Program-made: the position numbers and the translations under genes
DNA from: a virus
Reading direction: 5' to 3' (one strand)
Length of the DNA stretch: 47,572 bases
Virus record (IMG/VR): IMGVR_UViG_3300028908_000015
Location: 1-47,572 of that record
Shown: positions 8,573 to 46,920 of the stretch, piece by piece
Position numbering within the stretch: position 1 is the stretch's first letter
Layout of the letters: each line of letters starts with the position of its first letter
Notes under the pieces: generated by a model
The model's database searches: none
Told to the model about the DNA's origin: nothing
What the model saw: the letters and a program-made list of their open reading frames with translations, nothing else

Positions 8573-8751
8573 AATATGTTCTGTTAATAGCTTTGTCCCC
8601 ATTATTCCTTGTATTAGCGAAGGTATTTTTTGGGATAGTTGGTAGGCTTGTTTCTCTCGGTATTGAATTTGCTAAAGCTATCCTATACATCCTACAGCGT
8701 AAGTGGAGAGAATCATGGGAAAACTCACTGAAAAAGAAGCTAAAATCGTAA
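8569..8751 (+). CDS. Small membrane protein with basic tail
   Basis: A 60-residue protein starting MKYVLLIALSPLFLVLAKVF, hydrophobic over residues 3-45 and then basic (RKWRESWENSLKKKLKS). The start overlaps the previous stop, and the tail overlaps the start of the next gene by 37 bases. Function unknown. Confidence 0.68.
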   Translation: MKYVLLIALSPLFLVLAKVFFGIVGRLVSLGIEFAKAILYILQRKWRESWENSLKKKLKS

Positions 8752-9155
8752 GACTACACATGGAGTTTCCATCACAGGATCCGGTGACTTGGTTCGAGGA
8801 GGTCCTTCTTATTGCGGTGATTGTCCTCTCTATCATCGCCACCTTCGTAGTCTATGCTTATGGCGGTCAAGATGACCCGTGGACTACCAGTATCAATGAA
8901 GGTGCTGTTGGAGTCTATGACGATTCGTGGACACAGGGCGTGAATGAAGGAGCGGTGGGAAAGTACGACGATCCGTGGACCAGTGGTATCAATGAGGGTG
9001 CTGTGGGCCACCACGACGACCCGTGGACTACCAACATCAATGAAGGGGCGGTGGGAAAGTACGATGATCCTTGGACTACCGAAATAAACGAAGGGGCCGT
9101 CGGTCACTACGACGACCCCTTCACGCCCAATGTTAATGAGGGGGCTATTTATTAA
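8715..9155 (+). CDS. Membrane-anchored protein with six 16-residue repeats
   Basis: A 146-residue protein: about 28 N-terminal polar residues, one membrane span (about 29-50, LLIAVIVLSIIATFVVYAY), then six tandem repeats to the end. Each repeat reads roughly DDPWTTxINEGAVGxY; the last is shortened and ends NEGAIY. The ATG at 8715 follows GGAGAGA; an upstream in-frame GTG is less likely. The positive-inside rule would place the acidic repeats in the periplasm, though this is a prediction. It is the last gene of the rightward arm and meets the end of the leftward arm at a hairpin. Possible roles are host-surface change or exclusion of other phages; none is shown. Confidence 0.8.
   Translation: MGKLTEKEAKIVRLHMEFPSQDPVTWFEEVLLIAVIVLSIIATFVVYAYGGQDDPWTTSINEGAVGVYDDSWTQGVNEGAVGKYDDPWTSGINEGAVGHHDDPWTTNINEGAVGKYDDPWTTEINEGAVGHYDDPFTPNVNEGAIY
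8871..9152 (+). repeat. 48-bp in-frame tandem repeats
   Basis: Six head-to-tail units of 48 bp (8871, 8919, 8967, 9015, 9063; the last, 9111-9152, is 42 bp). The units differ mostly at third codon positions while the core residues DD-W-NEGAVG are kept, so the repeat is old and maintained by protein-level selection. Confidence 0.9.
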
Positions 9156-9163
9156 TGACAGAT

Positions 9164-9192
9164 AGAAAGGCGTTGTTGGCCAGCGCCTTTCT
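9164..9192. terminator. Hairpin between converging arms
   Basis: AGAAAGGCG (9164-9172) and CGCCTTTCT (9184-9192) form a perfect 9-bp stem with an 11-base loop. It lies just after the last + strand gene and touches the stop of the last minus-strand gene, so it is placed to stop transcription from both sides. A true U-tract is lacking on both strands, which lowers certainty. Confidence 0.65.
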
Positions 9193-10945
9193 AATTCAAA
9201 TTGAAAGCCCCTGATACCGCACCAACAGAAGTTGGTGCTTCTTTATACTTCTCAAGGTCAAACCCGGCCCTGATCCAGTCATTGACAACGGCAGCAGTGA
9301 ATCTTGAATCCCAACTAAACCTATCCTGTTCCCGACATTTAGCGATAAACCCATCAATAGTCGCTGGTGTCTCTCCGATATAAGTCATGTAGGTGTCTAT
9401 ATCTCTCGTGGGATCAGTGAATGTCTGTTGTGCCCATGACGATCCTGTTTCACCGATCCACGATACCCATCCTGCATAATCTGTGCTTACACCGTTAGTG
9501 TAAAATAAATCGTTCCCAGCATAGTATTTATTTCCGCTAAAAGAGTATTCGCTTCGACAGTCCCAACCTGCGTAAGCCACCCCTGATGTGATTGTTATTC
9601 CTGGAAGTTGAATAAGGTTATCTTTGAATACAATATTCTGCGAATCTATAGCTCCATAACTTATATTTATTGGTCTTTTCTTCCCTGCGTTATAAACTAC
9701 ATTACTTTGCCAGATTACATCTTGAGATGTCCGATAACCTGTAGTTAAACATTCCGCTCCATTTACATTACCATAGTTCATTATTAAATTGTTTGATATT
9801 AACCCATTCTGAACCAACCCGCCAAGCGTAATGCCGTTACAAGAATCAATATCTAAATAATCCGTATCAGCCCCGTTGGTAAACACAGTATTTATATAAT
9901 GGAAGTCTGGCAAGTGATCGTCATACCCATCGTCAGGAAAATTTCCTCCCGCCTGAATAGAATCAAAACCACCTATATGCAGATCATTATTAAACCTATG
10001 CTGGATTGTCATCTCTTTTCGAGAAACTTTTATGTTTGAAGCTGACGGATAAACTGAAACATTTTCATCTGAATCAACTATTTTGTTTGACGATAAATAC
10101 ATGGAATGGTTAAAGATTGTTGCTTGACCATCAGTGGCGTCCTCTCCAGCATTGGTACTTGGTATCCTCCATCCACAATGAATAAAATAATTCTGATAAA
10201 GTTTAAGACGTGTAATGTGGTGTGCATAAATGCCTTGTGAATGAGCGTCGGTGTCATAAGAATCGGCAAACGTATTTCGTCTTAATTCGATAGAAACATC
10301 AGAGGTTTCAGCACAATCTAAATTAGCTCCGATGGTGTACCATCGGAACTTGCACCCTTCAATCAAAATACCATCAATATTTTCTGTAGGAGCATAGATA
10401 AAAATGCCTTCTTTTCCACTAATAACCGTTCCTCCATCATCAGGGTTGCGACTTTTGCAATAAAAATCAAGCCCGAACAGAGCGATATAATTCCTGTTTT
10501 GTCCTATATAAACGGCTTCGCTCGACAAGTCTGTGGTATTAAGAATCGGACAATCACCACTTCCTCCATAAGCCCCAACAACCAACGGCTCTGTAAGTGA
10601 TCTTCCAGACTTGTTGATACTTATAGAAGAACTTACTATCCATGTTTCTCCGCGCTTAAACAGAACCCAGTCCGGGAAACCGTCCCTTACATTAGCAAAC
10701 GCCGCCGCAAAAGTAGCATAAGGCTTTATCGTACCTGTTGGATTAAACGGGTCGGATCCGATTTCTGGATCGCTCGGTAGGTAATATTGCGCGGTAGAAT
10801 CATCTCCAGAAGAAGAGACATATATAAGGCGCGTGTCATTCGATGCCGTGAATATTGTCCACCCGTTTACATCTCTTGGTAGATTCAGGAAAGCAGACCA
10901 TACAACAGACGGGCAAAGCAGTATTAAAAAAAGAATGATCCTCAT
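9191..10945 (-). CDS. Sec-exported right-handed beta-helix protein
   Basis: A 584-residue protein with a Sec signal peptide (MRIILFLILLCPSVVWSA) followed by a pectate-lyase-like parallel beta-helix: repeated short segments of the type NYIALFGLDFYC, NISYGAIDSQNIVFKDN and GLISNNLIMNYG. Such folds bind or cut polysaccharides. The start at 10945 overlaps the previous stop in ATGA; an ATG 15 bases upstream is also possible. Tail spikes usually lack signal peptides, so this one is either secreted to the periplasm or cell surface, or the hydrophobic N-terminus serves another purpose. A depolymerase role is inference; catalytic residues were not identified. It is the last gene of the late arm and the partner of the protein at 15965-17704. 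Confidence 0.78.
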   Translation of the reverse strand: MRIILFLILLCPSVVWSAFLNLPRDVNGWTIFTASNDTRLIYVSSSGDDSTAQYYLPSDPEIGSDPFNPTGTIKPYATFAAAFANVRDGFPDWVLFKRGETWIVSSSISINKSGRSLTEPLVVGAYGGSGDCPILNTTDLSSEAVYIGQNRNYIALFGLDFYCKSRNPDDGGTVISGKEGIFIYAPTENIDGILIEGCKFRWYTIGANLDCAETSDVSIELRRNTFADSYDTDAHSQGIYAHHITRLKLYQNYFIHCGWRIPSTNAGEDATDGQATIFNHSMYLSSNKIVDSDENVSVYPSASNIKVSRKEMTIQHRFNNDLHIGGFDSIQAGGNFPDDGYDDHLPDFHYINTVFTNGADTDYLDIDSCNGITLGGLVQNGLISNNLIMNYGNVNGAECLTTGYRTSQDVIWQSNVVYNAGKKRPINISYGAIDSQNIVFKDNLIQLPGITITSGVAYAGWDCRSEYSFSGNKYYAGNDLFYTNGVSTDYAGWVSWIGETGSSWAQQTFTDPTRDIDTYMTYIGETPATIDGFIAKCREQDRFSWDSRFTAAVVNDWIRAGFDLEKYKEAPTSVGAVSGAFNLN

Positions 10946-11814
10946 TTTGATCCGCTCCACAATGGGTTGGTAGAATAAACATGAAAATTGTCAAACGTAA
11001 CAGTGTTGATTTGAGATCCAAAAGCGGCAATGTTTATTCCGAGTTCAAGCCTATATAAAGTAGTAAATGGGTTTGTTGTTATATCTGACATAACACAGTT
11101 ACCATAGCCGACAATCTCCCCCTCTATTAATCCATCAGGCGTCACGTCATCGGTAGAACCCTTAAAGTGGTAGTGGACCGTATATACAGTTCCGGCAACA
11201 GGGGTGAAAGGCTGGTCACCGGAGCAAATTGGTTCGCTTTTAGATCCATTCACATAACCCCTAAACATGTAAGACGCAATGTTGCCGGCACTATTGATGT
11301 TAAATTGCAGTATGTCGCTCTGCCCACTACCTGTATAAGAGTATCTTCCAATGTACATAGTATTAGAAGGCTGCCACCCTGTATCTGACGAAAATGATAT
11401 GTCAAACTCTATCCAAAACTCTGTTAAATTTCCGGAGACACCTTCCAATACCAAATAGGCAGTCTCTGTATCTGCTTCCAATGCTACATCTAATGCGTTA
11501 TTATTTACAGACATTCGTCCGGCAGAATCTACTAACACTCCCCATTCATCCGGACACCCTCCAACCCCTTGGCAGGTAACATCCGTAGGATCGGTGACAT
11601 TATCCCAGTTTGTAGCGAAAGCATCTGTTGCTGAGGGCTCTTCAATCTTTTCGAATGCGGTACCATTATGCAGATACTTAGAGGCAGGTTTAAAGCTTGT
11701 GCCATCATGCACATAAGCTGTATCCGGCACGAACGTTGTCCCGTTATGCTGAAACCCCCAAGCCGATGAAACCAGTAGGAAAAGAACACTAATTAATCTG
11801 AAAGCAAAGATCAT
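10942..11814 (-). CDS. Sec-exported protein with LamG-like domain
   Basis: A 290-residue protein with a signal peptide (MIFAFRLISVLFLLVSSAWG), then three short repeats of the form HNGT-F-P--Y (QHNGTTFVPDTAYVHDGTSF, followed by YLHNGTAFEK), then a jelly-roll region of LamG/concanavalin type ending VTFDNFHVYSTNP. The C-terminal half resembles that of the protein at 17706-18893. It overlaps the upstream gene by 26 bases and the downstream gene by 4. Carbohydrate binding at the cell surface or on the virion is a reasonable inference. Confidence 0.72.
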   Translation of the reverse strand: MIFAFRLISVLFLLVSSAWGFQHNGTTFVPDTAYVHDGTSFKPASKYLHNGTAFEKIEEPSATDAFATNWDNVTDPTDVTCQGVGGCPDEWGVLVDSAGRMSVNNNALDVALEADTETAYLVLEGVSGNLTEFWIEFDISFSSDTGWQPSNTMYIGRYSYTGSGQSDILQFNINSAGNIASYMFRGYVNGSKSEPICSGDQPFTPVAGTVYTVHYHFKGSTDDVTPDGLIEGEIVGYGNCVMSDITTNPFTTLYRLELGINIAAFGSQINTVTFDNFHVYSTNPLWSGSK

Positions 11815-12607
11815 TTTGTACCCCCGTTTCAGATGCGCAGTCTGAACTTACGATGATATTACCTACCTGACTTGAAGCAGGTGCACCCACCTGAGCCGCC
11901 GTCACTTGATGAGGGTTGCTCGTATCGCTCACATGACTGGCTGGCGCGTACCCACTGCCATCAATACCGATGATCGGGTTGGCCGGATCAGAATTGTCAA
12001 CGGTAATGGGAGCCGTGCCCGTTACACCCTCAACCCCGCCTCCACCAGCGCCGGGGACATCGACGTTCTGCGTGCCGTCGAAATAGCGCCAAGTCTTGTC
12101 AGTGCTATTGTACCACATATCGCCCTCAGATGGCGTGGTTTTGTCGGTAGTGTTGAAGGCCCCTACCGAACGATCACCGTCGGCGGCCGTAGTCTGAATC
12201 TCCCCAGTCCGCACGATAGGAGCATCGAAGATACCCGTGGCGGGATCGTATTTCAGATTGGTATCACCACCGAACCCACCGGCGCCGTCGTTGTACTGAA
12301 CACTTCCGGTCTCACCACCGGGGGAACTTCCGGCACCGCCTTCATCAGCCGCCCACTGGGTATCATAATCGGCATCAGATACCTTTTTAAGCACTTGGTT
12401 TGTCGTTCCACCAGCGGGGATTAAACGGCTCCTCGGTTGTGCGGTAATGTTCCCAGCCCCGTCGGAGTCTATAATGCCGTCAGCGGCCCGCACATCAAGC
12501 GCAGTGGTATGAGCCTGTTCTATCTGCTGTTCAGAGTGGGAAAAATCCGCATAAGCCCATGCGGGAAACAGTAGAACAATCACCAAAATAAAAAATATCC
12601 GTTTCAT
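11789..12607 (-). CDS. Sec-exported tail-fibre-like protein
   Basis: A 272-residue protein with a signal peptide (MKRIFFILVIVLLFPAWAYA) directly followed by tail-fibre-type sequence: SRLIPAGGTTNQVLKKVSDA, DYDTQW, then GDMWYNSTDKTWRYFDG, VEGVTGTAPITV and SDTSNPHQVTAAQVGA. The SNPHxVTAAQVGA stretch is a common tail-fibre repeat. The GGTTxQVL module also follows the signal peptide in the protein at 17706-18893. The start overlaps the previous stop (ATGA). A fibre module behind an export signal is unusual; it may be a secreted adhesin or the hydrophobic tip may be an assembly anchor. Confidence 0.75.
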   Translation of the reverse strand: MKRIFFILVIVLLFPAWAYADFSHSEQQIEQAHTTALDVRAADGIIDSDGAGNITAQPRSRLIPAGGTTNQVLKKVSDADYDTQWAADEGGAGSSPGGETGSVQYNDGAGGFGGDTNLKYDPATGIFDAPIVRTGEIQTTAADGDRSVGAFNTTDKTTPSEGDMWYNSTDKTWRYFDGTQNVDVPGAGGGGVEGVTGTAPITVDNSDPANPIIGIDGSGYAPASHVSDTSNPHQVTAAQVGAPASSQVGNIIVSSDCASETGVQNDLCFQIN

Positions 12608-12777
12608 TCGTCATCCTCCGTTTTAAAAAGCCACGTCACCGCCGTGGTCGTTAGGGTCATCATCGCCGTGGCCGCGTCTTGAATCTGCATAATATAAAGT
12701 ACCATCGTGGCGACAATCAGGATCACTGTCACCACCACTCGTACCTTAAGCAATTGGTACATTTGATCGCGCATCAT
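12604..12777 (-). CDS. Small one-span membrane protein, holin candidate
   Basis: A 57-residue protein beginning MMRDQMYQLLKVRVVVTVIL, with a hydrophobic segment at about 12-31 and an amphipathic, then acidic tail (FKTEDDE). The start overlaps the previous stop by ATGATG; ATG at 12774 is an alternative. It is coupled to the next gene by ATGA. Size and location two kilobases from the endolysin make it one of three holin or spanin candidates in this region. Confidence 0.68.
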   Translation of the reverse strand: MMRDQMYQLLKVRVVVTVILIVATMVLYIMQIQDAATAMMTLTTTAVTWLFKTEDDE

Positions 12778-13844
12778 GACTCCGTACTGTAAAGGGGCTG
12801 GCCCGTGTTGTCGTACAGTCGCACACCGTCACTATCATAGAGCGGCAAGTGCGTACCCGTTGAAGGCTTAATCGAAATACGATCAACGATGGCATTGCAT
12901 ACGTTTCTAATGCTGAAGATGCCAAGTGTCCCAGTTCCGGGATAGGTCAAATACAAGTAAAAATCCCCCGCGCTATGGAGATATTCCTCCACCACACCAC
13001 CTTGCCCGAAACCAATTGTTCCCGACATCGGAGACCGTAGGGTCACGTCCACTCGATACTCCCCAGCGGCTGGGATAATATCCTGCGATTGCCAAAGCGA
13101 TACTGAGCCATCAGCCACAAGGTGCAGACCGTTGTTGACATTCTCGAAATAGTTGTTGGCATCAATCGTTCCGCCTTGATACCATGACGTAGGTTGTACA
13201 TCACTATCCCAGTAATAAAAGCCACCATTGGTAAGCAGGTTATTGGGGTCAGGCATAATGCGGAAATTCTGTAGCGCCTTTCCATCCGGCACCAGCCAAT
13301 CACGGGCGATGATCCCCACTCGGCCTTCGTCCAGCACCGTTGTCGTCCCGGACCATTCGCCCAGACCGTCCACCCGAACCTTCGCGGTATTACCCACCAC
13401 AGTAAACTCACACAACTTGCCCACTACGTTGGCCACTGCGGGGCCGGTAAATACATTGGTCCAATTCGGGCTACGCTCCCAGCAGGTCAGGTTGCCATTA
13501 TACATGGTCACGCCAACCCAATAGTCGAAGCTCGTCATACGAGCCACTAACTCGTAAGGCTGGTATTGATTAGTATCACCTGGCGCCAGCAGGATAGCCG
13601 ACACCCCAACGTCAACCTCGGTCAGATTGGTGTAAGCGATGCACTGATCGGGGACGTCACCCTGATTCAAAAACCAAATGGCCCCATCTTGATCCAGCCG
13701 GGTGTTACTATCCCCTGCTCCGGTAAGGTTCGTCCACAATGGGTGCCGTTCGATTGGCTCATAATCCTGTGGCACTTGTGGGATGAACTCCTTGATAAGC
13801 ACCGGCTGGATAACCGGCTGTATTATGCTCTGTATAATATTCAT
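12774..13844 (-). CDS. Beta-rich virion-associated carbohydrate-binding-like protein
   Basis: A 356-residue protein without a signal peptide. The middle (about 60-200) looks like a LamG/keto-disaccharide-hydrolase-like beta sandwich (VRVDGLGEWSG, EGRVGIIARDW, LQNFRIMPD), followed by a carbohydrate-binding-like jelly roll (LLTNGGFYYWDSDVQPTSWY). The end repeats a short motif: LYDSDGVRLYDNTGQPLYS. It begins 2 bases after the preceding stop. It is probably a tail-associated or secreted sugar-binding protein; no catalytic residues recognised. Confidence 0.72.
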   Translation of the reverse strand: MNIIQSIIQPVIQPVLIKEFIPQVPQDYEPIERHPLWTNLTGAGDSNTRLDQDGAIWFLNQGDVPDQCIAYTNLTEVDVGVSAILLAPGDTNQYQPYELVARMTSFDYWVGVTMYNGNLTCWERSPNWTNVFTGPAVANVVGKLCEFTVVGNTAKVRVDGLGEWSGTTTVLDEGRVGIIARDWLVPDGKALQNFRIMPDPNNLLTNGGFYYWDSDVQPTSWYQGGTIDANNYFENVNNGLHLVADGSVSLWQSQDIIPAAGEYRVDVTLRSPMSGTIGFGQGGVVEEYLHSAGDFYLYLTYPGTGTLGIFSIRNVCNAIVDRISIKPSTGTHLPLYDSDGVRLYDNTGQPLYSTES

Positions 13845-13845
13845 A

Positions 13846-14103
13846 TTAAGGCCCCAAATAAACTCTCACGTCTTCCTCAATATTCACCGCCCTGAATCGA
13901 AGTGCCACTGTGACGTCCGGAGTAGAGATGGTGAAGGCCCCGACTTGACTGTTAATAGGAACCCACTTACCCGATGCCACTTGCATCTCGGTAAAAATAT
14001 GCCCCTTGCCATTCCCCTCCACCATCGCGGTAGTCACCGTAGACGCGGGGTTGTACGTTGCCGATATTAAACTGCTTGGTGTAAGAACCTCATTCAGCGC
14101 CAT
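13846..14103 (-). CDS. Small hypothetical beta-strand protein
   Basis: An 85-residue protein starting MALNEVLTPSSLISATYNPA and ending VNIEEDVRVYLGP. The ATG at 14103 follows AGGAGG and overlaps the preceding stop in TAATG; upstream in-frame sequence belongs to the basic peptide gene. Composition suggests a small beta structure, perhaps virion-associated. Function unknown. Confidence 0.75.
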   Translation of the reverse strand: MALNEVLTPSSLISATYNPASTVTTAMVEGNGKGHIFTEMQVASGKWVPINSQVGAFTISTPDVTVALRFRAVNIEEDVRVYLGP

Positions 14104-14234
14104 TACTTTTTCCTCCTTCTGTTGTTTGCTACGGGACAAAGACCCGCTCTCGCCCTCGGTCCCGTACCGTTTCGGGGACCGCGCCTGGGCCTCCGCGTTG
14201 TTCGTCGTATCACAACTGCCTTTTTCTTAGCCAT
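14103..14234 (-). CDS. Very basic 43-residue peptide
   Basis: A short gene that starts MAKKKAVVIRRTTRRPRRGP and ends NNRRRKK; over 40% of residues are Arg or Lys. It is joined to both neighbours by TAATG overlaps and has GGAGG before its ATG (AACGGAGGAAAAAATA), so translation is well supported despite its size. It may bind nucleic acid or membranes. It resembles arginine-rich peptides but no family is recognised. Confidence 0.65.
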   Translation of the reverse strand: MAKKKAVVIRRTTRRPRRGPRNGTGPRARAGLCPVANNRRRKK

Positions 14235-14374
14235 TATTTTTTCCTCCGTTTGCTCTTCCCCTTGTACCCGTTAGCGTAAGCGGCGCGGCCCTGCCTTTCT
14301 GCCTGTGCCTTCGTCGGATAAACCTTGCCTTTACTCCCCCACTTCCAACCGCCTTTCACCTTTCTGACTGGCAT
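14234..14374 (-). CDS. Small basic phage protein (KVYPTKAQAE type)
   Basis: A 46-residue basic protein starting MPVRKVKGGWKWGSKGKVYP and continuing TKAQAERQGRAAYANGYKGK. This pattern (W.WG..GK.YPTK..A..QG.AA) is a recurrent small phage protein usually near lysis or tail genes, function unknown. GGGAGGAGG lies before the ATG. It overlaps the end of the preceding gene by 44 bases and is followed by a TAATG join. Confidence 0.75.
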   Translation of the reverse strand: MPVRKVKGGWKWGSKGKVYPTKAQAERQGRAAYANGYKGKSKRRKK

Positions 14375-14591
14375 AAGCACCTCCTCCCTCTGAGAAGTAT
14401 TGACCGCCCAGCACTTTCTGGGTCTCCGTTCTATTTATTTCCTCACAACAAAACTTAATCACATTGTTCACTCTATCTTCAAGCGCGTTTAAACGAGCAT
14501 TCATTGTTGTAATGTAAATCACCGCTCCGAACAGCATGCTCAAAACGCTCAGTCCGATGGTAATCCAAACCGAGGGGTGGGTCTTAGTCAT
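14331..14591 (-). CDS. Membrane-anchored coiled-coil protein, spanin/holin candidate
   Basis: An 86-residue protein with one membrane span (about 8-30, VWITIGLSVLSMLFGAVIYI) followed by a helical segment (NARLNALEDRVNNVIKFCCE). This N-in layout with a periplasmic helix is what an inner-membrane spanin or a small accessory lysis protein looks like. It starts in a TAATG overlap with the endolysin stop, the usual place for such genes. Confidence 0.68.
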   Translation of the reverse strand: MTKTHPSVWITIGLSVLSMLFGAVIYITTMNARLNALEDRVNNVIKFCCEEINRTETQKVLGGQYFSEGGGAYASQKGERRLEVGE

Positions 14592-14956
14592 TATTTAAAC
14601 CATACCACGTTAGGGTCCTTATTAGGGTCTACATCAATATGGATTAAGTGCGGTAAATGTGGGTATAAGCCGATACGTGTTACCCCAAAATGTAATGCTG
14701 AATCGATTATCTTAAATCTTGCTCGTGATCCAGAAACCTTAAGGTCAACCGCATACCCCCTTAAATGTGCAGAATTTTTAACACCGCCCACTTCAGCATT
14801 ATGCCGCTTACACCGCATGGCACTACGTATAATGAAAGGGATATCTGCGTATTCACGCATCTCGTCTAAAAGCCGTAAAAAATCCCTATCCATAGCCTTG
14901 AATCCAAGACCGCAACCACAACGTCAATTAAAGTCAGAGGGTTTGAAATATCGCAT
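14591..14956 (-). CDS. M15-type D,D/L,D-peptidase endolysin with UGA at codon 11
   Basis: The zinc peptidase core is clear: SAMRCKRHNAEVGGVKNSAH with the ligands H64 and D71 (HLRGYAVD) and H106 (IHIDVD), numbering from the ATG at 14956. That ATG overlaps the stop of the preceding gene (TGATG) and reads MRYFKPSDFN, then TGA at 14924-14926, then RCGCGLGFKAMDRD. The family normally has a Cys at exactly that codon (EFxCxCGCG), so the UGA replaces a conserved Cys. An internal ATG at 14893 would give a 100-residue form that keeps the zinc site but loses the N-terminal segment. It should cut peptidoglycan cross-bridges for lysis. The UGA may be a mutation, an error or a recoded position. Confidence 0.8.
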
Positions 14957-15267
14957 CAATTTAATACCTTAGATTCAACATACCTTAATCGTTGATCCAA
15001 CGAATTTAATCGGGCTTCTTCTTTCTCTTCCATTCGAAGGATATACTCTTTTAACCAATCTTGACTCGATTCAATCCGTTTTAAACTTTCCAGAACCACC
15101 GCAGTTGCTTGTTTACTCTCATTCGCTGAAACCTCACAAGCTAATAATCGGCTTTGGCTTGTTGCATATACTGCTCCAATTACACCACCCATTAGTCCCA
15201 AACCAGTAAGCACTATAGCTATGAATTGCCATAAAGTAGGTATCTTAGCAATACGATCTTCGTCCAT
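14956..15267 (-). CDS. One-span membrane protein with coiled coil, lysis cassette
   Basis: A 103-residue protein starting MDEDRIAKIPTLWQFIAIVL with a membrane span at about 12-35 and a long helical tail (QDWLKEYILRMEEKEEARLN, then SLDQRLRYVE). AGAAAGGCG precedes the ATG. The stop overlaps the endolysin ATG. It resembles a spanin inner-membrane subunit or an atypical holin; which cannot be decided from sequence. Confidence 0.72.
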   Translation of the reverse strand: MDEDRIAKIPTLWQFIAIVLTGLGLMGGVIGAVYATSQSRLLACEVSANESKQATAVVLESLKRIESSQDWLKEYILRMEEKEEARLNSLDQRLRYVESKVLN

Positions 15268-15278
15268 GTAACGCCTTT

Positions 15279-15968
15279 CTATGGAATTACGACTGGAATG
15301 TTATAAGGTGCTTGATAACCAGTGCTTCTCATCGCAGCATTATCGGCAGAAAAATCTTGGGATTGTCCGATAACGCCCACATTCCCTTGATTATGAGAGT
15401 TAGAAGTATCACGTCCACCACCACCAGACCCACCAGAAGTGCTACTATTACTTTGCCCCATGTTAGCTTCTTGCGAATTGTATGAATTAACATTATAATG
15501 CTCGTTCGTAGTCGAGTTATTAACTGTTGTTGGCGCATTCGCCACAGCCGTAGCCGCTCCATACTCTCCCGCTTTTTCGATAAGATAGCCCCCATAAGCA
15601 GCCCCGGCAATACCCAAAGCCACAGGTAGAATACGGAAAGTACCATCAGCGATACGCTCACCAATAGTAGGAGCAGGGGATTTGACTTCGCGTAATGCTC
15701 TTGATAGGGCATAGGGATCCTCCCGGTCGTTGAACAGCATCATCATTGCCATAACCTTAACAAGCTGATTGGTTGGTGTATCCGGTACCTGATACCCCGT
15801 TACTACAGCTTTTAAAAACTCCATCTTCAACTGCAGTTCGGCCTGCCGTTCTTGCGCTCGTTCCTTGGCAATCTCTTTCATCGACTGGTAATACAGATCG
15901 TGCCGGTCTGTGGATGAAGCACAACCCGCCATTGCCAGTACCAAGGCCAACAAAAGAAGTTTTCTCAT
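15279..15968 (-). CDS. Predicted lipoprotein upstream of the lysis genes
   Basis: A 229-residue protein with a lipoprotein signal and lipobox (MRKLLLLALVLAMAGC, lipidated Cys at 16), a charged helix (KEIAKERAQERQAELQLKME), a Gly/Ala-rich hydrophobic stretch near 117-135 and a Gly/Ser/Asn-rich end. It should be anchored in the inner or outer membrane. It could pair with the neighbouring one-span proteins as an outer-membrane spanin, though it is longer than most. It overlaps the previous stop by ATGA. Confidence 0.72.
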   Translation of the reverse strand: MRKLLLLALVLAMAGCASSTDRHDLYYQSMKEIAKERAQERQAELQLKMEFLKAVVTGYQVPDTPTNQLVKVMAMMMLFNDREDPYALSRALREVKSPAPTIGERIADGTFRILPVALGIAGAAYGGYLIEKAGEYGAATAVANAPTTVNNSTTNEHYNVNSYNSQEANMGQSNSSTSGGSGGGGRDTSNSHNQGNVGVIGQSQDFSADNAAMRSTGYQAPYNIPVVIP

Positions 15969-17704
15969 CTCGGTTCCCCCACTAAGGTGCCGTTATAAGT
16001 TACCAGACTCCCGTTGTAAGTGTAAACTTGCATCCCTGTAGGAGCCTGCCCTTCCTCAGCAATAGTGAATTGCACCACATAAGATGTAGTGTTCGCGTTA
16101 CCATTCTGGTCCTGACACCGTACATAGAAAGTATGCTCTTGACCGCAGGCCAAATCAGCTATCGGCGTTGAATGACCAATACCGCCCGTAGTGGCAAAGG
16201 TGTGAGTCATAGACGCATAGTCTATATCCAGTTGGTCCCATTTGCAGGAGGCAAACTCGTTTGTGTCAACGGAGATAATGACATCTTCTGGATTTGACGT
16301 ACAGCTAACCGTACCAGTAGGCTTACCATTGCTGATAGTCGGCGGCAATACATCTTCACCAGAAGCGTATTCATAGGGTCCTATATCCCATGCGGACCCC
16401 TGCGGACGTGCAACACCATCGAAGTCAAATGCGAAATCAGGTCGGGTAACACCCTTATCCACGAAGGGACTCTGGTCTGTATAATGGAAATCGGCGTTTG
16501 CCTCATCAACAAAATAAGGCTGACCGCCGTTCACACCATTAGGCTCATTAAACTCCAGCTTACCCTCATAGTTATAATCCGGCCCTTTGGAAACATAGTT
16601 ATAATCAGCGGTGAAATTGATGTTCGGCGTGGTCGCGTCTATGCCATCCGTCCATGAATAATAACCGGTATCCTCTTGCCCTGGGTAAGAAGCACAACCA
16701 ATAAAAATGTTGTTCAGAATGGTGACATCGTGTGACCACCCATAGTCATGAGTGTCCAAATCAATAGCTTCGGCTCGGAGCAAAATAGGGCCATCGGTGT
16801 TGTGCCCTGTGTCATAGAACAGGTTATTCTCCCATATCACATAGGGCATAGAAGCCTGAGCTACTTGTCCTACACGGACGAACAGGTTATTCCTCCATGT
16901 CCAATGTGAATGATTTACCACACCCTCACGGTTCTGGAGCATGGAAATCGAACCGCTTGAATCATGGACGTAATTACCTTCAATCAAGACGTTATAAGAT
17001 TGCTCACCATTGCTGTCATATATCTGGGTGAAATCCGCGTGAAACCCCCCTTCGTCCATCCCTACAATTTCGTTCCCACGGATAATGAGGTCATGTCCAA
17101 AGGGCCTGAAAATATCGCAATTAGAATTATGATCGAAGAGGTTGTTTTCATAAAGCACGTTATAGGTTTTCGTACCCGTTTGCGTTATGACTATACCACC
17201 ATCGGTGCCATCATAGATAAAGCGATTACTCCGAATAATGACATCATGGGCACCACCATCCGCACCACTATTAGCGGCTATAGCAAGATTGCGACCAAAA
17301 GTATTATTGATGAACTCCCACCAGCTTCCGTAATGGCCGTACACCTCACCGGTAATGGTAAGCCCCTCAACACGGATATAACTTGCCTGTGCGCTATCCC
17401 AGCTACCAAGAGTGAAGGTGCCATCTATAACAACGGTATCTCCGGGATTGGCCTTGAATGTAAACCACGCATCGGCAGTGCCATTCTGGGATGTATAGAC
17501 ATTCTCGGTATACGTACCAGACTTAATGATGAGCACATCACCAGCAGCCATCTGGTTTTTACCATAGGTGATGGTAAGATATGGATTACCAATAGTACCA
17601 TCGCCCGTGTCATCACTACCATCTTTCGCAACGTAGATATCCCGTGCTAAGACAGGCGCCGCAAAGATAGCCAAAATAATAAAAACGATAAATAACTTTT
17701 TCAT
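15965..17704 (-). CDS. Sec-exported right-handed beta-helix protein
   Basis: A 579-residue protein with a signal peptide (MKKLFIVFIILAIFAAPVLA) followed by a DUF1565-like start (IYVAKDGSDDTGDGTIGNPY) and a parallel beta-helix with many NNLFxxxG and RGNEIVG turns (about 25-445). An Ig-like region follows (about 450-550, PPTISNGKPTGTVSCTSNPE), and the end repeats YNGSLVTYNGTLVG. The start is taken at 17704, two bases after the preceding stop; sequence upstream in frame overlaps that gene and lacks a signal. It probably binds or cleaves polysaccharide at the cell surface. The signal peptide is unusual for a phage spike. It pairs with the protein at 9191-10945. Confidence 0.78.
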   Translation of the reverse strand: MKKLFIVFIILAIFAAPVLARDIYVAKDGSDDTGDGTIGNPYLTITYGKNQMAAGDVLIIKSGTYTENVYTSQNGTADAWFTFKANPGDTVVIDGTFTLGSWDSAQASYIRVEGLTITGEVYGHYGSWWEFINNTFGRNLAIAANSGADGGAHDVIIRSNRFIYDGTDGGIVITQTGTKTYNVLYENNLFDHNSNCDIFRPFGHDLIIRGNEIVGMDEGGFHADFTQIYDSNGEQSYNVLIEGNYVHDSSGSISMLQNREGVVNHSHWTWRNNLFVRVGQVAQASMPYVIWENNLFYDTGHNTDGPILLRAEAIDLDTHDYGWSHDVTILNNIFIGCASYPGQEDTGYYSWTDGIDATTPNINFTADYNYVSKGPDYNYEGKLEFNEPNGVNGGQPYFVDEANADFHYTDQSPFVDKGVTRPDFAFDFDGVARPQGSAWDIGPYEYASGEDVLPPTISNGKPTGTVSCTSNPEDVIISVDTNEFASCKWDQLDIDYASMTHTFATTGGIGHSTPIADLACGQEHTFYVRCQDQNGNANTTSYVVQFTIAEEGQAPTGMQVYTYNGSLVTYNGTLVGEPR

Positions 17705-17705
17705 C

Positions 17706-18893
17706 TTAATTACCTGTGGTTGTATTAAAGCCACGGAAGTTATCATAAAATACCGTACCACCAGCAAAAGCCCCCATATTAATTGAGTCTATAACGGCGC
17801 TGTCAACAGCTACGTTAAGCCACTCTTCCGTTGGCGTTACCCCATCAAAATCGGTGATGGTATCCGAGTACCAATACTGAATAACACCATCCCCAGCGCC
17901 CGATGTACTTTCACGCTTAACCCTCACTCGTATATGATACCACGTGCCTTCTGTAACTACAAAAGTAGTGGTTGTACGAGTTACCGTACCAAAGCTAAAG
18001 TCTATTCTATTCGTCGGAAGATACACATACATATAACCTATTTGTGCATCTGCATTATCATAAAATCGAACCGGAGTTCCACTTGACTGGGGCACGTCAA
18101 AATTCCACCACCAGTCAAAAGTAACATCATCCACTCCACTAAAACGCTTTTTCGCCGTTGCAGTAGTATCAGTACCATAGGTGTGTAATGAATAAACCCC
18201 TGCATATGGCTTCGTATTGTCTTGCGGGCACACATCCCCATCTTTAGTAGCGGGGCAAACGATAGTCCCGGAAACCAACTCAAGCCCCGGATCAGTTTCA
18301 AAATCCATGTAAAACAAATCCCCAGTAGGTGCAACTGGAGGCGTACCCGTCTCGTATAATCCACTGGCATCCATAAGAATATTAGTTGCCGTGGGTGTGC
18401 CTACTGTAGCAAGGACCACGCGTTGATTAGCGTTAATCCCGTCATAAACTAAAGAGAGTGTCTGTTCTGTAGTGGTTAAAGTAACCGGAGAGGATAAAAA
18501 AGAGGCGCAATTTGTAAGATCTACATCACAAAGTTGAATATCAACAACAGCTTCTCCTGTATTCACTTTCCCCACAATATTTGTAAAACGCCACGGCTCA
18601 AAAGGGCGCATCCACTCATAAACCGTATCAGCCGCAGGAGACGAAACTGCTTTTTGCTCATACCATTTACCACCGGGAGGAATAGACCATTTGGTATCAT
18701 AATCCGTATCGGAATTTTTAATTAGTACCTGACCTGTCGTACCACCACCAGGGATCAAACGTCCCTCGGGCAAGGGCTGCGCGGCCTGTACATCATCAAC
18801 CGCCTGATCCACTTCCTGCCAAGTATTCTGTAATTTATAGGCGTGGCTGTTAACAGCGAATAGCAGTATCAAAAGCGCAATCAGTTTTTTCAT
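17706..18893 (-). CDS. Sec-exported tail-fibre-module plus LamG-like protein
   Basis: A 395-residue protein: signal peptide MKKLIALLILLFAVNSHA, then a fibre module (GRLIPGGGTTGQVLIKNSDT, DYDTKW) nearly identical in layout to that at 11789-12607, then a LamG/concanavalin-like domain (about 195-395, FYMDFETDPGLELVSG to FYDNFRGF). This is the joined form of what the second cassette encodes as two genes (11789-12607 and 10942-11814). The role is likely surface sugar binding or adhesion. Confidence 0.75.
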   Translation of the reverse strand: MKKLIALLILLFAVNSHAYKLQNTWQEVDQAVDDVQAAQPLPEGRLIPGGGTTGQVLIKNSDTDYDTKWSIPPGGKWYEQKAVSSPAADTVYEWMRPFEPWRFTNIVGKVNTGEAVVDIQLCDVDLTNCASFLSSPVTLTTTEQTLSLVYDGINANQRVVLATVGTPTATNILMDASGLYETGTPPVAPTGDLFYMDFETDPGLELVSGTIVCPATKDGDVCPQDNTKPYAGVYSLHTYGTDTTATAKKRFSGVDDVTFDWWWNFDVPQSSGTPVRFYDNADAQIGYMYVYLPTNRIDFSFGTVTRTTTTFVVTEGTWYHIRVRVKRESTSGAGDGVIQYWYSDTITDFDGVTPTEEWLNVAVDSAVIDSINMGAFAGGTVFYDNFRGFNTTTGN

Positions 18894-18901
18894 TTTTCCT
18901 C

Positions 18902-19108
18902 CTAAGCTGGCGCAAGACCCACAGAAAGTAAAGTACCGTTCTCATCCTTATATTTCAAGCCATTATCTGCGGCGTCGACAAATAGTGTTAGGTTCGGAAC
19001 AGTGGCCGCGTCTTGTGGGACAAAGGTGATATAGTCTCCACTGCTCTCACCAATTTGGTCTAACTTGGCGTCAACCTCACTCCCTTTATACTTACTCTGA
19101 TAGGCCAT
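18902..19108 (-). CDS. Small tail-associated hypothetical protein
   Basis: A 68-residue protein starting MAYQSKYKGSEVDAKLDQIG. The start SKYKGSEVDAKLD resembles the short attachment segments at the N-termini of some tail-fibre proteins. It lies between the fibre gene block and the exported proteins. Function unknown; probably virion-associated. Confidence 0.7.
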   Translation of the reverse strand: MAYQSKYKGSEVDAKLDQIGESSGDYITFVPQDAATVPNLTLFVDAADNGLKYKDENGTLLSVGLAPA

Positions 19109-19348: not shown

Positions 19349-20668
19349 TTACGCCTCCGGTTGAACCAGAAATACCTCAACATCTGGACCAGCACCGTAT
19401 TCAGTTTTCATGGCGAAAATAACCGATAAGTATCGTGGAACGTTATCAAGGATAATTTCAGTTTCCCCAGTATCACCATGATTATGGGGGAGATCCCCAC
19501 CACGAGAACCAGAAGTAGCGTAATTAGCCAAAGCGTAATAGGCTCCACCATACTGACTCCCCGGATCAATCGTAATATATGTTCCACCACCTTTCAAATT
19601 ACTAAGAGGGTGATGGTGGTTCGGCATTTCATCCACCGTCAAAGTATGATCCTGAGTAGTATGTGAATGCAGGGTTGACATAGTGTTTGCCCCGCCCGGT
19701 TGGCCCTGAATGTTAGACCCCATTAAAAAACGGTCATCAGTAAGATTAGGGAGGAATCTGCCTGGCTGATTAAAAATGGGGGAGGCCGCATTTTCATATT
19801 CTGAACCATCGCATACCCTGTATCCAAAAGGCGCGAGATACGCTTGTGGGTTCCCAAGCACATCAGTAAAATTACCATTAGAACTGTCAGTAAAATAACC
19901 CCCTAACCATGCCATAATATGACCTACCGGAACTGTACTAAGAGACTGAGCCACTTGTGTAGCCCAATATTCAGCCCTATCAGCATCATTAGCGGCGGCC
20001 TGTGCAGACTGTAACGCCTGCTGTTCAGAGTTGGACGCATTAGTTTCTGAGGTTTTAGCGTTAGTCTCCGATACTGCCGCCGCATTAGCCGCATCAATGG
20101 CATTCTGTTCTGCGTCCTTAATGTTGGATACATCAAGAGTTAGCGCCCAATAACCTGCGGCGAGGTCATCTGAAAAAGAAGCCCCCGATATGTGCTCTAC
20201 TTTACATATGTATATGTTTCCCGTATTAGGTTCTGTTATGTTATCCCCGGTATAATATTGAACCCCTGAAATCCACTCACCCCGCCATGAAGATGTCTGC
20301 GTCCCTTCTTCAACCGTAACTTCGAGCTGTTGCATCATCATGGTAAGCCTATCCATGTCCTGCTCTAACAGCTCTACGTTGAAAGCATCATTATTAACCC
20401 AATCGGTCTGATTCTCAATAGGAAGGACGCGACGAACTTCAAGCGCTCCTTCCGTGGCGGCATAAGTCAAATGACAAGTGCCCCCTTGATAATCAGAATT
20501 TAATGTAACCGTATAATCGATTCCAAGCTGTAATGGTGTAACCAGCCCAGAAGTATCCTGATGAGTTACAACGAGGTCCTCTTCTTTATATACCTTATAG
20601 CTGTACGAATAATCCCCAGGGCCGGAATACTGAAATCGTATATACGGAACTTCTACGCCAATAGTCAT
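19349..20668 (-). CDS. Tail fibre with T7-type N-terminal and collar-like C-terminal domain
   Basis: A 439-residue fibre. The N-terminal ~150 residues match the T7 gp17 attachment domain (PYIRFQYSGPGDYSYSYKVY, the LEVRRVLPIENQTDW strand and NVELLEQDMDRL). A helical/coiled stretch rich in Ala and Asn follows (about 180-225). The C-terminal part is a phage tail-collar fold with GRFLPNLTDDRFLMG, then HSHTTQDHTLTVDEMPNHHH and PHNHGDTGE, which carries a His-rich metal site. It should sit on the tail and contact the host surface. Its start overlaps the preceding stop as TAATG. Confidence 0.88.
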   Translation of the reverse strand: MTIGVEVPYIRFQYSGPGDYSYSYKVYKEEDLVVTHQDTSGLVTPLQLGIDYTVTLNSDYQGGTCHLTYAATEGALEVRRVLPIENQTDWVNNDAFNVELLEQDMDRLTMMMQQLEVTVEEGTQTSSWRGEWISGVQYYTGDNITEPNTGNIYICKVEHISGASFSDDLAAGYWALTLDVSNIKDAEQNAIDAANAAAVSETNAKTSETNASNSEQQALQSAQAAANDADRAEYWATQVAQSLSTVPVGHIMAWLGGYFTDSSNGNFTDVLGNPQAYLAPFGYRVCDGSEYENAASPIFNQPGRFLPNLTDDRFLMGSNIQGQPGGANTMSTLHSHTTQDHTLTVDEMPNHHHPLSNLKGGGTYITIDPGSQYGGAYYALANYATSGSRGGDLPHNHGDTGETEIILDNVPRYLSVIFAMKTEYGAGPDVEVFLVQPEA

Positions 20669-39799: not shown

Positions 39800-40693
39800 T
39801 TAAATCAAGTCCTCTATGTTTATAGGCACTTGTTTTAAACCCGCTGTATCTTGCTTTATTTTACGGTCCTCATCTTCAAGCCTTGGCGTTGCTAAATCCA
39901 TAACATATTCCTCGTTTATTTCTATCCCCACAAAATTCCGGAAATGCTGAAGGGCTACAACACCCGTTGTACCTGATCCTGCAAAAGGGTCCAACACTGT
40001 GCCGCCTTTCGGGCAACCCGCAAGAATACACGGTTCTATTAGTTTCGGAGGAAATGTTGCAAAGTGGGCTTTTTTATACCTGGCTGTTGTTACTGTCCAT
40101 ACCGATCGTTTGTTTCGTCCATTTATTTTAACCGCTTCTTTGATGGCATCCGCGTCGTAATAATATCTTGCAGACTTACTCATCAAAAAAATATATTCAT
40201 GGGCTTTCGTACATCGATCCTTAACACTTTCCGGCATTGGATTCGGTTTGTGCCAGATGATGTCCTGCCTTAGATACCACCCATCGGCCTGCAAGGCGAA
40301 AGCCACCCGCCAGGGTATTCCGATCAGGTCTTTCGGTTTAAAAGACGCTTTTTTAAAATCCGGGCTTCTCTTGTTTGGCGGGGTTGTTTCATCTGGGTCT
40401 CTATTCGCTCCAAACGGTTTATGGGCATACTTCTTACCCCAATACCCTGCATAAACATCCCCAAGATTAAGCCACAACGTTCCATCATCCCTCAATACCC
40501 GCTTAACCTCCCGGAACACCTTGACCATATTTTCGACATAATCTTCTACTGTAGCTTCGAGGCCCATTTGCCCATCAACCCCGTAATCGCGCAGCCCCCA
40601 GTATGGTGGCGATGTCACACAACAATGGACATACTGAGACGGCATCTCAGCTAACTTGTCATGCGCATCGCCAATGTGCAGTGTGAAACCCAC
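39800..40693 (-). CDS. DNA (adenine-N6 or cytosine-N4) methyltransferase, beta-type
   Basis: A 297-residue methyltransferase: catalytic TSPPYWGLRDYG (26-37) at the N-terminus and the AdoMet-binding motif DPFAGSGTTGVVAL near the C-terminus, followed by FVGIEINEEYV. This order is that of beta-type enzymes. SPPY is most often seen in N4-cytosine enzymes, but the base cannot be assigned. There is no partner restriction gene, so it probably protects phage DNA from host restriction. The start is GTG, 2 bases after the HTH gene stop. The protein ends VPINIEDLI, a tail shared with four other proteins here. Confidence 0.9.
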   Translation of the reverse strand: MGFTLHIGDAHDKLAEMPSQYVHCCVTSPPYWGLRDYGVDGQMGLEATVEDYVENMVKVFREVKRVLRDDGTLWLNLGDVYAGYWGKKYAHKPFGANRDPDETTPPNKRSPDFKKASFKPKDLIGIPWRVAFALQADGWYLRQDIIWHKPNPMPESVKDRCTKAHEYIFLMSKSARYYYDADAIKEAVKINGRNKRSVWTVTTARYKKAHFATFPPKLIEPCILAGCPKGGTVLDPFAGSGTTGVVALQHFRNFVGIEINEEYVMDLATPRLEDEDRKIKQDTAGLKQVPINIEDLI

Positions 40694-43965: not shown

Positions 43966-46920
43966 ATGCAAAGTCAAGTCCAATCTGCCCGGTCGGGTAG
44001 GCAAGACCCCTTTTCTTTAACTTTTTTACAGCCCACGCAGCGCTGGGCCACAACCGCTAAAACCTACAGCTCGCCGACACCTGAAGGACTTCAAGCCGGG
44101 TACCAGCTATCCAAATATTTTACCTGGGAGCGGATCAAGTTTGAAAGCCTCCAAGAGTTTGCGATCACCCTCACCCAGCTAAATCGTCATATAGCTATAT
44201 ATGGCGTGCCACATCCCACCTTGCCCCTTCTGTCCAACACAGCCGCCCGGACCACAGACAACTTTCCATACCCTGACGACCAAATCTTGCACGTGTTCGA
44301 TCTTGACGCCTGGCCCATACCAAAAGACGCCCGGGACCTGATCAAGCCTTCTCTGACCGATCCGCAGTCCATGGCGCAGCTTGTAAGACACCTATTGACA
44401 ACTGAAGGCTTCACGTACCTGTCAAACGCGGACCTGGTGATCGTGCTGACATCGAGCCAATGGACGCTGGAGAAGCTAAACTGCCACGTCTATGCTGTGT
44501 TTGACGCGCCTGTCCGTGTTGAGACCTTGCGAGAGTATGCCACGGCCCTGAGGAAGGTGGCCGGGCGGACCGTGATCGATCCAGCCATCTACAAGTCCGT
44601 GCAGCCGCAGTATTTCAATGCACCGGTCTGTCAGGGCTTCGAAGACCCCTTGCAAGGCAAGCGTGTGATCTATTCGCCGGGGCAGGAGGGCATGGTAAGT
44701 GCCGAGGCATTCCAGCAAGATTATGGACGGGTGTTGAAACTCGCAGGCTGGGAGCCGGGGCAGCGGTCAAACATCTTACCGCCCATAGCGGACACCTGGG
44801 CTGGAACACTGCAGCGATTCGTTGGACCGCACGGAATAAACGAGCCATCTTACCGGGCGGCCGCGCAGCTTGTGCAGTCCATCGGCGCCGAGAACGTCCG
44901 AGCCAACCTGGACCACTACGCAAAGAAGATGCACGATATTGTCTGGGAGCGGCTGCTTGACCCCGCGAACAAGTCAAGCCGGGGCGGACCGAAAGACAAG
45001 CAGACTTACACCGTGGCGCGGTTCAAACAGTACCTACAATCGGCGCTGCAAAAGAATTTTGGCTCAGAAGTGGATCAGCGGATTGCCCGGGTGCAGAAAG
45101 CCCTTGATAAGGCGCTCCAGGATCGCTCCCTTGCGCCACTCACTGATGCAGACACCGTGCAGGCCATGGTGGAGCTCGAAAGCCGGTGGTACAGCCGATG
45201 GCTGCCGGTAAGGCAGACCATCATCGACAGCGGGCTGATCAAGAGCCGGGAGCTTGGGCGGTTGATGAAGACCGTTTCCACCCAGGCGCAGCTTGAAGGG
45301 CCGGTGGACGCCCTGCCGCCCGTTAATGGTGATAACGCCAATGCAATAGAAAACGCGCTGATCGAAGCTATCCTGAGCCAGTACGAGAAGATCCAGGACC
45401 ACCACGGAAGCAAGTATCTGTCTGTGGCAGGTAACGGTGACGGCGGGTACAAGCTAAACCGGGTGTCCGGTGACCTGGTGAACCTGCTATATGCCCGAGG
45501 GCTTGCGCTGTCCGGGGGATCGGTCAGCCCCTTGTTCGGCAAAAAAGCGCTGTCCAAGCTGATCGGCGATGAGATGGCTGCAGTGGATTCAATCTTTCAG
45601 CCGTGTCTGATCGGCACTCGCGTTGTGACCGAGGGGGAGCTCCCCGGGGATCCGGTGTGGTGGAACTTGTCCAGGCAGGCTGACGGTGTGTACCGCTCGC
45701 TTCGCATTGACCCAGATAGCGTATCAATCCTAAAGCATGTTGAGAGCCGTCCCCGGTGGTTCGCGGGAACGGTGCCGCTGATCATTGCAACAGAGGAGCA
45801 GATCCAGAAACGGTTCGGGTCCCAGCCGGACCTTACGCGGTACCTGCTGGAGAAGTTCAAATATTTTTTCTCATTGAACACCGAGGAAGCCGTCAAGATG
45901 CTGACCTGGGCGGCCGCTGCCATGACCGGAAAGGGAGTGAGCTATCTGCTGGAGATCGTGGGCACACCGTCTTCCGGGAAATCAACAGCGGCGGACCTTC
46001 TAAAGGACCTCACCGATCCGTCACCGGCACAACTCGGAAGTGGCGGAGACCGGACAGCGTTTCACGGAGTGTCATCGGATTTTATCGCGGACATCGAGTC
46101 CCGGTGGGTGACGATCATCGACAACATATCGAGTCTCACGAAAAAAGAGCAGGACCTGCTGTGCCAGGTCGCCACCGGTTTGCGGCACAACGAACGGATC
46201 CTGTACACCCAGTCCCAGATGCAGCGGGTGATCAAGCGGCCGTTGATTTTCACGTGCCTGGCTCCCGTGGTGACCCGGCCGGATCTGTCGTCCCGAGTGC
46301 TCACCGTTACCATGAGCGAGGCCCCCTTCCGGCCGGAGTACATTAAGGAATGGGGCGAAGAAAAGCCGTTCATGGTGGCCGCCCTGGCACAGTTGGTCTC
46401 CAGATCACTCCGGTACCTGTCCGGGATCAAAAAAAAGCCCAAGCATATTCCGCATCGGGACGTGTACACTTCGTGCGTGTACTCAGCGATCCAAGGCACA
46501 GAAGAAGTTGACTTCAGCTTCATGGAGGCGATCAGACAACGGGAAGCTGTTGAATATCAGTATGATGTAGGGTTCGTAGGCATACTGTGCCGATATCTTG
46601 AAAGCGAATACGATCCAAATGAGCCGCTATCTTTTAGCACCAGGGGGCTGCATCACCGTTTACAAAACTGGGTCCAGGACCACATAGGCGATACCATCAA
46701 CGGCCGCTTGATTGAGCCATCCATGCTCCCAAGGACAGGCCGGGGAATGGGATGGGAAGTGGCAAAATACATCCACGTAATAAGCCGTTTGATCCCCTGG
46801 GAATACGATCACGTCGAAAGCTCAAACAACGGAAAACGCTACATATTCAAGCCAAAGAAAAAAAGTTTACAAAAAGACAAAAAAACTGTTGACACACCAG
46901 ATATAAACTGTTATCTTTAA
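43966..46920 (+). CDS. AEP-type primase fused to SF3 (D5-like) helicase
   Basis: A 984-residue replication initiator/primase. The archaeo-eukaryotic-type primase core is visible: D112 and D114 in HVFDLDAW, H174 in LNCHVYAVFD and D205 in VIDPAIYKSV followed by QPQYFNAP. A middle helical region follows. The helicase part has Walker A GTPSSGKST at 666-674, Walker B VTIIDN near 715-720, a sensor-like NERILYTQSQMQ and an arginine-finger region (SRVLTVTMSE). It primes and unwinds DNA for the family A polymerase at the other end of the same strand. GGGG lies before the ATG. It replaces the VapE-type helicase usual in the DUF2800 gene cluster. Confidence 0.92.
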   Translation: MQSQVQSARSGRQDPFSLTFLQPTQRWATTAKTYSSPTPEGLQAGYQLSKYFTWERIKFESLQEFAITLTQLNRHIAIYGVPHPTLPLLSNTAARTTDNFPYPDDQILHVFDLDAWPIPKDARDLIKPSLTDPQSMAQLVRHLLTTEGFTYLSNADLVIVLTSSQWTLEKLNCHVYAVFDAPVRVETLREYATALRKVAGRTVIDPAIYKSVQPQYFNAPVCQGFEDPLQGKRVIYSPGQEGMVSAEAFQQDYGRVLKLAGWEPGQRSNILPPIADTWAGTLQRFVGPHGINEPSYRAAAQLVQSIGAENVRANLDHYAKKMHDIVWERLLDPANKSSRGGPKDKQTYTVARFKQYLQSALQKNFGSEVDQRIARVQKALDKALQDRSLAPLTDADTVQAMVELESRWYSRWLPVRQTIIDSGLIKSRELGRLMKTVSTQAQLEGPVDALPPVNGDNANAIENALIEAILSQYEKIQDHHGSKYLSVAGNGDGGYKLNRVSGDLVNLLYARGLALSGGSVSPLFGKKALSKLIGDEMAAVDSIFQPCLIGTRVVTEGELPGDPVWWNLSRQADGVYRSLRIDPDSVSILKHVESRPRWFAGTVPLIIATEEQIQKRFGSQPDLTRYLLEKFKYFFSLNTEEAVKMLTWAAAAMTGKGVSYLLEIVGTPSSGKSTAADLLKDLTDPSPAQLGSGGDRTAFHGVSSDFIADIESRWVTIIDNISSLTKKEQDLLCQVATGLRHNERILYTQSQMQRVIKRPLIFTCLAPVVTRPDLSSRVLTVTMSEAPFRPEYIKEWGEEKPFMVAALAQLVSRSLRYLSGIKKKPKHIPHRDVYTSCVYSAIQGTEEVDFSFMEAIRQREAVEYQYDVGFVGILCRYLESEYDPNEPLSFSTRGLHHRLQNWVQDHIGDTINGRLIEPSMLPRTGRGMGWEVAKYIHVISRLIPWEYDHVESSNNGKRYIFKPKKKSLQKDKKTVDTPDINCYL
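46889..46917 (+). promoter_or_regulatory. Promoter P3
   Basis: TTGACA (46889-46894), 17 bases, TATCTT (46912-46917), the same pair of boxes and spacing as P1 and P2. It lies inside the last codons of the primase-helicase gene and reads toward the Cro-like gene and the junction gene. A GTTTACA half-site (46865-46871) lies 18 bases upstream of its -35 box. Confidence 0.82.

Follow-up and report, generated by a model that had tools for sequence, protein, structure and literature searches.

Sec signal peptides on fibre-like proteins encoded by two cassettes around the lysis genes of a podovirus contig: a candidate exported accessory system of tailed phages

The DNA analysed here, referred to as the window, is a whole virus contig of 47,572 bases (IMG/VR record IMGVR_UViG_3300028908_000015). 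Between positions 9191 and 18893 it carries two gene cassettes, A and B, which encode five fibre-like, LamG-like or beta-helix-type proteins. As claimed in an earlier note on this DNA, all five open reading frames (ORFs) are present, each with a complete Sec signal peptide (SP) according to a heuristic. Cassettes of this type recur in other phages, and for some phages a location of fibre-like proteins outside the host cytoplasm, besides the ordinary fibres of the particle, is probable. We put at about even the chance that the cassette products form an exported accessory complex which binds or cuts glycans and is additional to the virion fibres.

Each of the five N-termini has a positively charged n-region, a hydrophobic h-region and an AXA-type cleavage site. 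In 197 control loci, the heuristic marks two of 812 genes of at least 250 amino acids as SP genes, both of them doubtful, and the chance of at least five SP genes among the seven genes of at least 250 amino acids in the cassette stretch is about 2e-12. Among 80 ORFs from other viral contigs with the fibre motif GGTTGQVL, a convincing signal peptide was found in none of the 79 complete ones, which makes it unusual for this fibre module to be preceded by a signal. Chance hydrophobic N-termini were ruled out by the control loci and the GGTTGQVL fibres. We infer that the five cassette proteins are exported and their signals cleaved.

Looking for like cassettes in other phages revealed the ordered trio of SP-fibre, SP-lectin-like and SP-beta-helix genes in vir555 (BK063671), a relative with conserved synteny, as well as in phage contigs that are unrelated. 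A short distance after its gp17-type fibre, vir555 has four consecutive SP genes, which encode in this order a fibre of 768, a lectin-like protein of 241 and a beta-helix protein of 526 amino acids, followed by an incomplete fourth gene. A Methanomicrobiales host is annotated for BK063671, yet bacterial-type signal peptides and the trio are present (L130, 18539–23781), and this questionable host assignment deserves a check. A different phage (L004–L006) encodes an SP-fibre of 505, an SP-LamG-like protein of 230 and an SP-beta-helix protein of 736 amino acids. When viral contigs, metagenomic and mostly incomplete, were scanned for the beta-helix end motif WDIG[AP]YE[YF], the ordered trio appeared in many further contigs. 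At least two consecutive SP genes occur in 24 distinct contigs and at least three in 18 (window and vir555 included), counts which are no prevalence estimate because the scan selects one kind of beta-helix; not even two consecutive SP genes were found in any of the 197 control loci. The signal on the beta-helix gene tracks that on the upstream genes (37 of 51 versus 6 of 26; Fisher p=7e-5, the genes being not fully independent). The signal status of the beta-helix gene and its upstream neighbours behaves as for one unit.

In L291 the cassette is flanked by the genes for the major head protein and a tail protein; its neighbour is a tail-completion gene in L253, a major head protein gene in L250, and an endolysin gene in each of L228 and L229. 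Being placed among head, tail and lysis genes, the cassettes are thus phage operons and not stray bacterial DNA. The tail protein phrog_376 is common to the phages of the window, vir555, L228 and L291, and was not found in the other carriers searched. The phage of L254 has a further SP fibre-like gene of 497 amino acids (L312, 13263–14756, minus strand), which stands apart from its trio and beside the likely major head protein gene. Our search of the open-licence literature yielded no account of fibre cassettes with Sec tags in tailed phages, and target proteins of phage diversity-generating retroelements are stated to be without signal peptides (PMC6199706).

Homologues without a signal provide an independent view of the cleavage sites. 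The SP-less beta-helix protein of L264 (MATYYIDYSSGSDANAG...) aligns with that of L254 (...GAYA^ATYYIDYSGGADANAG..., the caret marking predicted cleavage) exactly from the predicted cleavage point, with 50% identity over 416 residues. The same pattern was seen in the pairs L239/L233 and L213/L220, and also for gene 2 of cassette A (15965–17704) against the SP-less L233, where residue 4 of the mature window protein is aligned to residue 5. That some SP-less homologues begin at the predicted cleavage point supports the cleavage sites and shows that gain or loss concerned the signal as a whole. Judged by these alignments, a tail-type protein was supplied with the signal as a module. Mature SP proteins contain 1.30% cysteine, SP-less GGTT fibres 0.33% and SP-less neighbours 1.02%; even and odd cysteine counts are distributed 38:21 in the mature SP proteins and 24:26 in the SP-less neighbours. 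Enrichment and even lean fit disulphides in an oxidising compartment outside the cytoplasm, as would be expected. In one case a lipid anchor is possible: the phage of L246 encodes a fibre-like protein of 1911 amino acids (L315, 10911–16646, minus strand) with a lipoprotein signal (MKRLIAAIVALTFLSFVGC), for which membrane anchoring is predicted because of its lipobox (SFVGC) and good ribosome-binding site.

The folds named in the earlier note were borne out in part. Gene 2 of cassette A encodes a beta-helix (PF13229, E=1e-6) and matches the N-terminus of a GH120 xylosidase (3vst, E=6e-10), but for gene 3 of cassette B the evidence is weak (hhalign probability 8%). Comparison of the beta-helix profile with PDB pointed to polysaccharide lyase family 6 (PL6), rhamnogalacturonan lyase and lacto-N-biosidase. 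The window's own LamG-like proteins have no Pfam match, although their positional counterparts match Laminin_G_3 in 4 of 18 cases. The SP fibres combine the GGTTxQVL module with weak matches to PHROG tail fibre families (E 1e-5 to 0.03). The cassette proteins are probably glycan-binding or glycan-cleaving. Single-sequence AlphaFold models were useless (mean pLDDT 39.5 for the second LamG-like and 29.6 for the second beta-helix protein, 9191–10945), and a PDB search with the first LamG-like protein gave chance-level matches only. Protein searches against phage records revealed nothing for the first LamG-like and both beta-helix proteins and short motif matches only for the fibre gene; nothing was found in IMG/VR for either the first LamG-like or the second beta-helix protein, and the DNA of the cassette region had no match to phage records.

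The earlier note had proposed a secreted auxiliary system instead of virion parts. Export is supported by signal peptides beyond chance and by the recurrent gene order, and a role apart from the virion by a separate SP-less fibre in four carriers; a virion role after periplasmic maturation retains some probability (see below), and the secreted depolymerases, exclusion of other phages and decoys which the note suggested are speculative. In the phages of the window (19349–20668), vir555, L228 and L241, an ordinary tail fibre without signal peptide is encoded beside the cassette, and because these four carriers also have such a fibre, an exported accessory complex is favoured over virion parts. 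The SP-less fibre provides the window's sole match to the gp17-type adaptor (phrog_1640), which was not recognised in the SP proteins.

If such a complex is exported, the cassette proteins would be late products, synthesised along with the tail and lysis proteins, and the host Sec machinery would move each of them across the inner membrane with loss of the signal peptide. Outside the cytoplasm, the fibre-type, LamG-like and beta-helix proteins may act as an accessory set, possibly as a complex, on envelope or extracellular polysaccharide, in addition to the canonical tail fibre. Receptor glycans might be masked or trimmed, with fewer progeny lost on debris and less superinfection; alternatively, capsule or matrix might be loosened. 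More broadly, and with a confidence slightly short of even, we propose a widespread and so far unnamed system. In this system, a mobile cassette of late genes for fibre, lectin-like and beta-helix proteins would have gained Sec (once lipoprotein) signals, and tailed phages of different types would use it during infection to bring a glycan-active fibre complex, distinct from the virion fibres, into the host envelope or beyond it.

Several points weigh against an exported accessory complex. The signal peptides were scored with our own heuristic and not with SignalP, and the calibration covered phage controls only; export, cleavage, expression and binding are what we infer from the sequences. In diderm hosts, Sec leads to the periplasm only, and action outside requires lysis or another pathway. 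The SP fibre of the L253 siphovirus (L303, 10393–12153, plus strand, 586 amino acids) follows the tape measure gene, which is the usual place of a receptor-binding protein, and no other fibre was seen on the incomplete contig of this phage. Placement of the cassettes among head and tail genes would suit virion parts equally well. The SP proteins might accordingly be receptor-binding fibres of the virion which mature in the periplasm, by disulphides or calcium-dependent folds, and are joined to the tail when lysis mixes the compartments. Their tail-fibre architecture with the GGTTxQVL module would agree with this, as would the cassette positions in L291 (between head and tail genes), L253 (by tail completion) and L250 (by the major head protein), the receptor-binding-protein place in the phage of L253, and the existence of homologous tail-type beta-helix proteins without SP. 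We consider periplasmic maturation of virion fibres less likely than an exported accessory complex: a canonical fibre without SP is separately encoded in four carriers, no virion-attachment domain was recognised in the SP proteins, and one SP fibre is lipoprotein-like.

Improbable, in our estimate, is a function as lysogenic-conversion or cargo genes for surface or secreted adhesins which benefit the infected or lysogenic host, for example in attachment or biofilm formation. The cassette genes of the window are tightly spaced (gaps 0–170 bases) and share one strand with the tail and lysis genes around them, no integrase was recognised in the window, and promoter and terminator scans of it remained at chance level. 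A cargo role could nevertheless draw on the precedent of PblB, a phage tail-type protein serving as surface adhesin (PMC4508584), and on the phage of L219, where a tyrosine-recombinase-like gene (L308, 10186–11028, plus strand) directly after the SP trio suggests a temperate carrier. Finally, the hydrophobic N-termini might not be working signal peptides at all, with the proteins staying in the cytoplasm and entering virions with uncut N-termini. Prediction by heuristic only leaves room for this, but we regard it as very improbable in view of the complete n-, h- and c-regions with Ala-X-Ala-type sites in five of five proteins, the absence of two consecutive SP genes from all 197 control loci, the SP-less homologues which begin at the predicted cleavage site, and the cysteine enrichment and parity.

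The features of the cassette region are listed in Table 1. The earlier note had described cassette B as cassette A with its first gene split in two. This claim is not supported, as only the fibre N-termini are detectably homologous (37% match between 17706–18893 and 11789–12607 over the first approximately 106 residues, signal included). A simple split-gene relation was rejected: the lectin-like parts gave a BLASTP E of 0.07, and the beta-helix parts are not detectably homologous. By these comparisons the cassettes are of common architecture, with no detectable copies beyond the fibre N-terminus. The GGTTxQVL module is present in both first proteins, as had been noted, at 12332–12442 in cassette B and inside 17706–18893 in cassette A. 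The former protein has weak matches to PHROG families of tail fibres and of virion structural proteins, the latter no Pfam match.

Table 1. Features of the cassette region of the window. Carets indicate predicted signal peptide cleavage sites; aa, amino acids; TM, transmembrane segment.
Feature	Position	Strand	Description
Ordinary tail fibre without SP	19349..20668	-	phrog_1640 E=1.1e-18, phrog_5795
68-aa fibre-motif protein without SP	18902..19108	-	8 bases upstream of cassette A; no family match
Cassette A gene 1	17706..18893	-	SP, fibre module GGTTGQVL, middle domain, LamG-like C-terminal part; 395 aa
Cassette A gene 1 SP	18893-18840	-	MKKLIALLILLFAVNSHA^YK
Cassette A gene 2	15965..17704	-	SP, right-handed beta-helix, Ig/FN3-like domain with 4 Cys; 579 aa
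Cassette A gene 2 SP	17704-17645	-	MKKLFIVFIILAIFAAPVLA^RD
Lysis-region lipoprotein	15279..15968	-	lipobox LAMAGC, possibly spanin-related
Small one-TM protein of lysis region	14956..15267	-	from sequence; no convincing family match
Endolysin-type M15 peptidase	14591..14893	-	PF08291 E=2.8e-15
Holin-like one-TM protein	14331..14591	-	phrog_9876 holin E=0.006
97-aa protein between lysis genes and cassette B	13846..14139	-	without SP
356-aa protein without SP	12774..13844	-	weak virion-structural similarity, phrog_2804 E=2e-4
Cassette B gene 1	11789..12607	-	SP, fibre module GGTTNQVL; 272 aa
Cassette B gene 1 SP	12607-12548	-	MKRIFFILVIVLLFPAWAYA^DF
Cassette B gene 2	10942..11814	-	SP, HNGT-type repeats, LamG-like part; 290 aa
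Cassette B gene 2 SP	11814-11755	-	MIFAFRLISVLFLLVSSAWG^FQ
Cassette B gene 3	9191..10945	-	SP, probable beta-helix; 584 aa
Cassette B gene 3 SP	10945-10895	-	MRIILFLILLCPSVVWS^AF

Ribosome-binding sites are recognisable in four of the five cassette genes (AGGAGG for gene 1 of cassette A). The exception is gene 2 of cassette A, for which ATG 17704, one base after the preceding stop codon and with a weak ribosome-binding site only, is a better start than the TTG 17767 of the ORF call. The stop of this gene overlaps the start of the lysis lipoprotein gene. Within cassette B, the last 26 bases of gene 1 are shared with gene 2, and gene 3, with ATG 10945 as the better start, overlaps gene 2 by 4 bases. 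The G+C content of the cassette genes is mostly 0.41–0.46, with gene 1 of cassette B (0.54) as an exception, versus 0.496 for the whole contig and 0.52–0.54 for head genes. The cassettes flank the lysis genes as described earlier, the lipoprotein, TM protein, M15 peptidase and holin-like genes all lying between A and B. The ordinary tail fibre consists of a T7 gp17-type N-terminal adaptor and a collar-type C-terminus. Convergent with the end of cassette B is a gene (8703–9155, plus strand) for a one-TM protein of 150 amino acids with about five 48-base repeats (DDPWTTxINEGAVGxY) and no family match.

By its portal (phrog_332), major head protein (phrog_212) and tail protein (phrog_376), the window virus is grouped with podoviruses of the epsilon15, BPP-1 and Pelagibacter-phage kind. 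Its nearest relatives by tail protein (approximately 60% identity) are only fragments, which stop short of the fibre region or close to it. A weak hint of a Desulfobacterota host comes from a 7-kb contig of a Desulfomonile metagenome-assembled genome, at whose edge lies a 98-residue piece of this tail protein. Elsewhere in the window, a DNA methyltransferase (39800–40693, minus strand; N6_N4_Mtase, PF01555, E=1.3e-54) is encoded near the terminase, and an ORF of 984 amino acids (43966–46920, plus strand) has no Pfam or PHROG match.

Tail fibres are usually taken as cytoplasmic virion parts, and annotation pipelines call such genes receptor-binding proteins. Should export of fibre, lectin and beta-helix proteins apply to many environmental phages, a host range predicted from those genes would be wrong for them, and the cassettes would represent a new way in which phages act on the envelope or matrix of the host, or else an unknown route of fibre maturation.

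Among known systems, tailspike depolymerases and T7 gp17-type fibres resemble the cassette proteins in their beta-helix or fibre modules and carbohydrate-active fold matches, but they are assembled onto virions in the cytoplasm and have no signal peptides. T5 Llp and lambdoid Cor are exported phage proteins which block the phage receptor and protect the progeny; likened to the cassette products by their described role alone, they differ in being small and in acting on a protein receptor. T4 Spackle (gp61.3) is likewise a phage-encoded protein exported to the periplasm during infection, with cleavage of its N-terminal signal (PMC7650644), but it is a lysozyme inhibitor of 97 amino acids, is not fibre-like and belongs to no cassette. 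PblA and PblB are comparable as phage tail-type, glycan-binding proteins outside the producing cell: PblB of Streptococcus mitis, which is of streptococcal prophage origin, is set free when the phage is induced and attaches to other cells, and a signal peptide has been predicted for pneumococcal PblB (PMC4508584). They differ from the cassettes in that S. mitis PblB surfaces after phage-induced permeabilisation, that the hosts are Gram-positive, and that there is no trio of fibre, lectin and beta-helix proteins.

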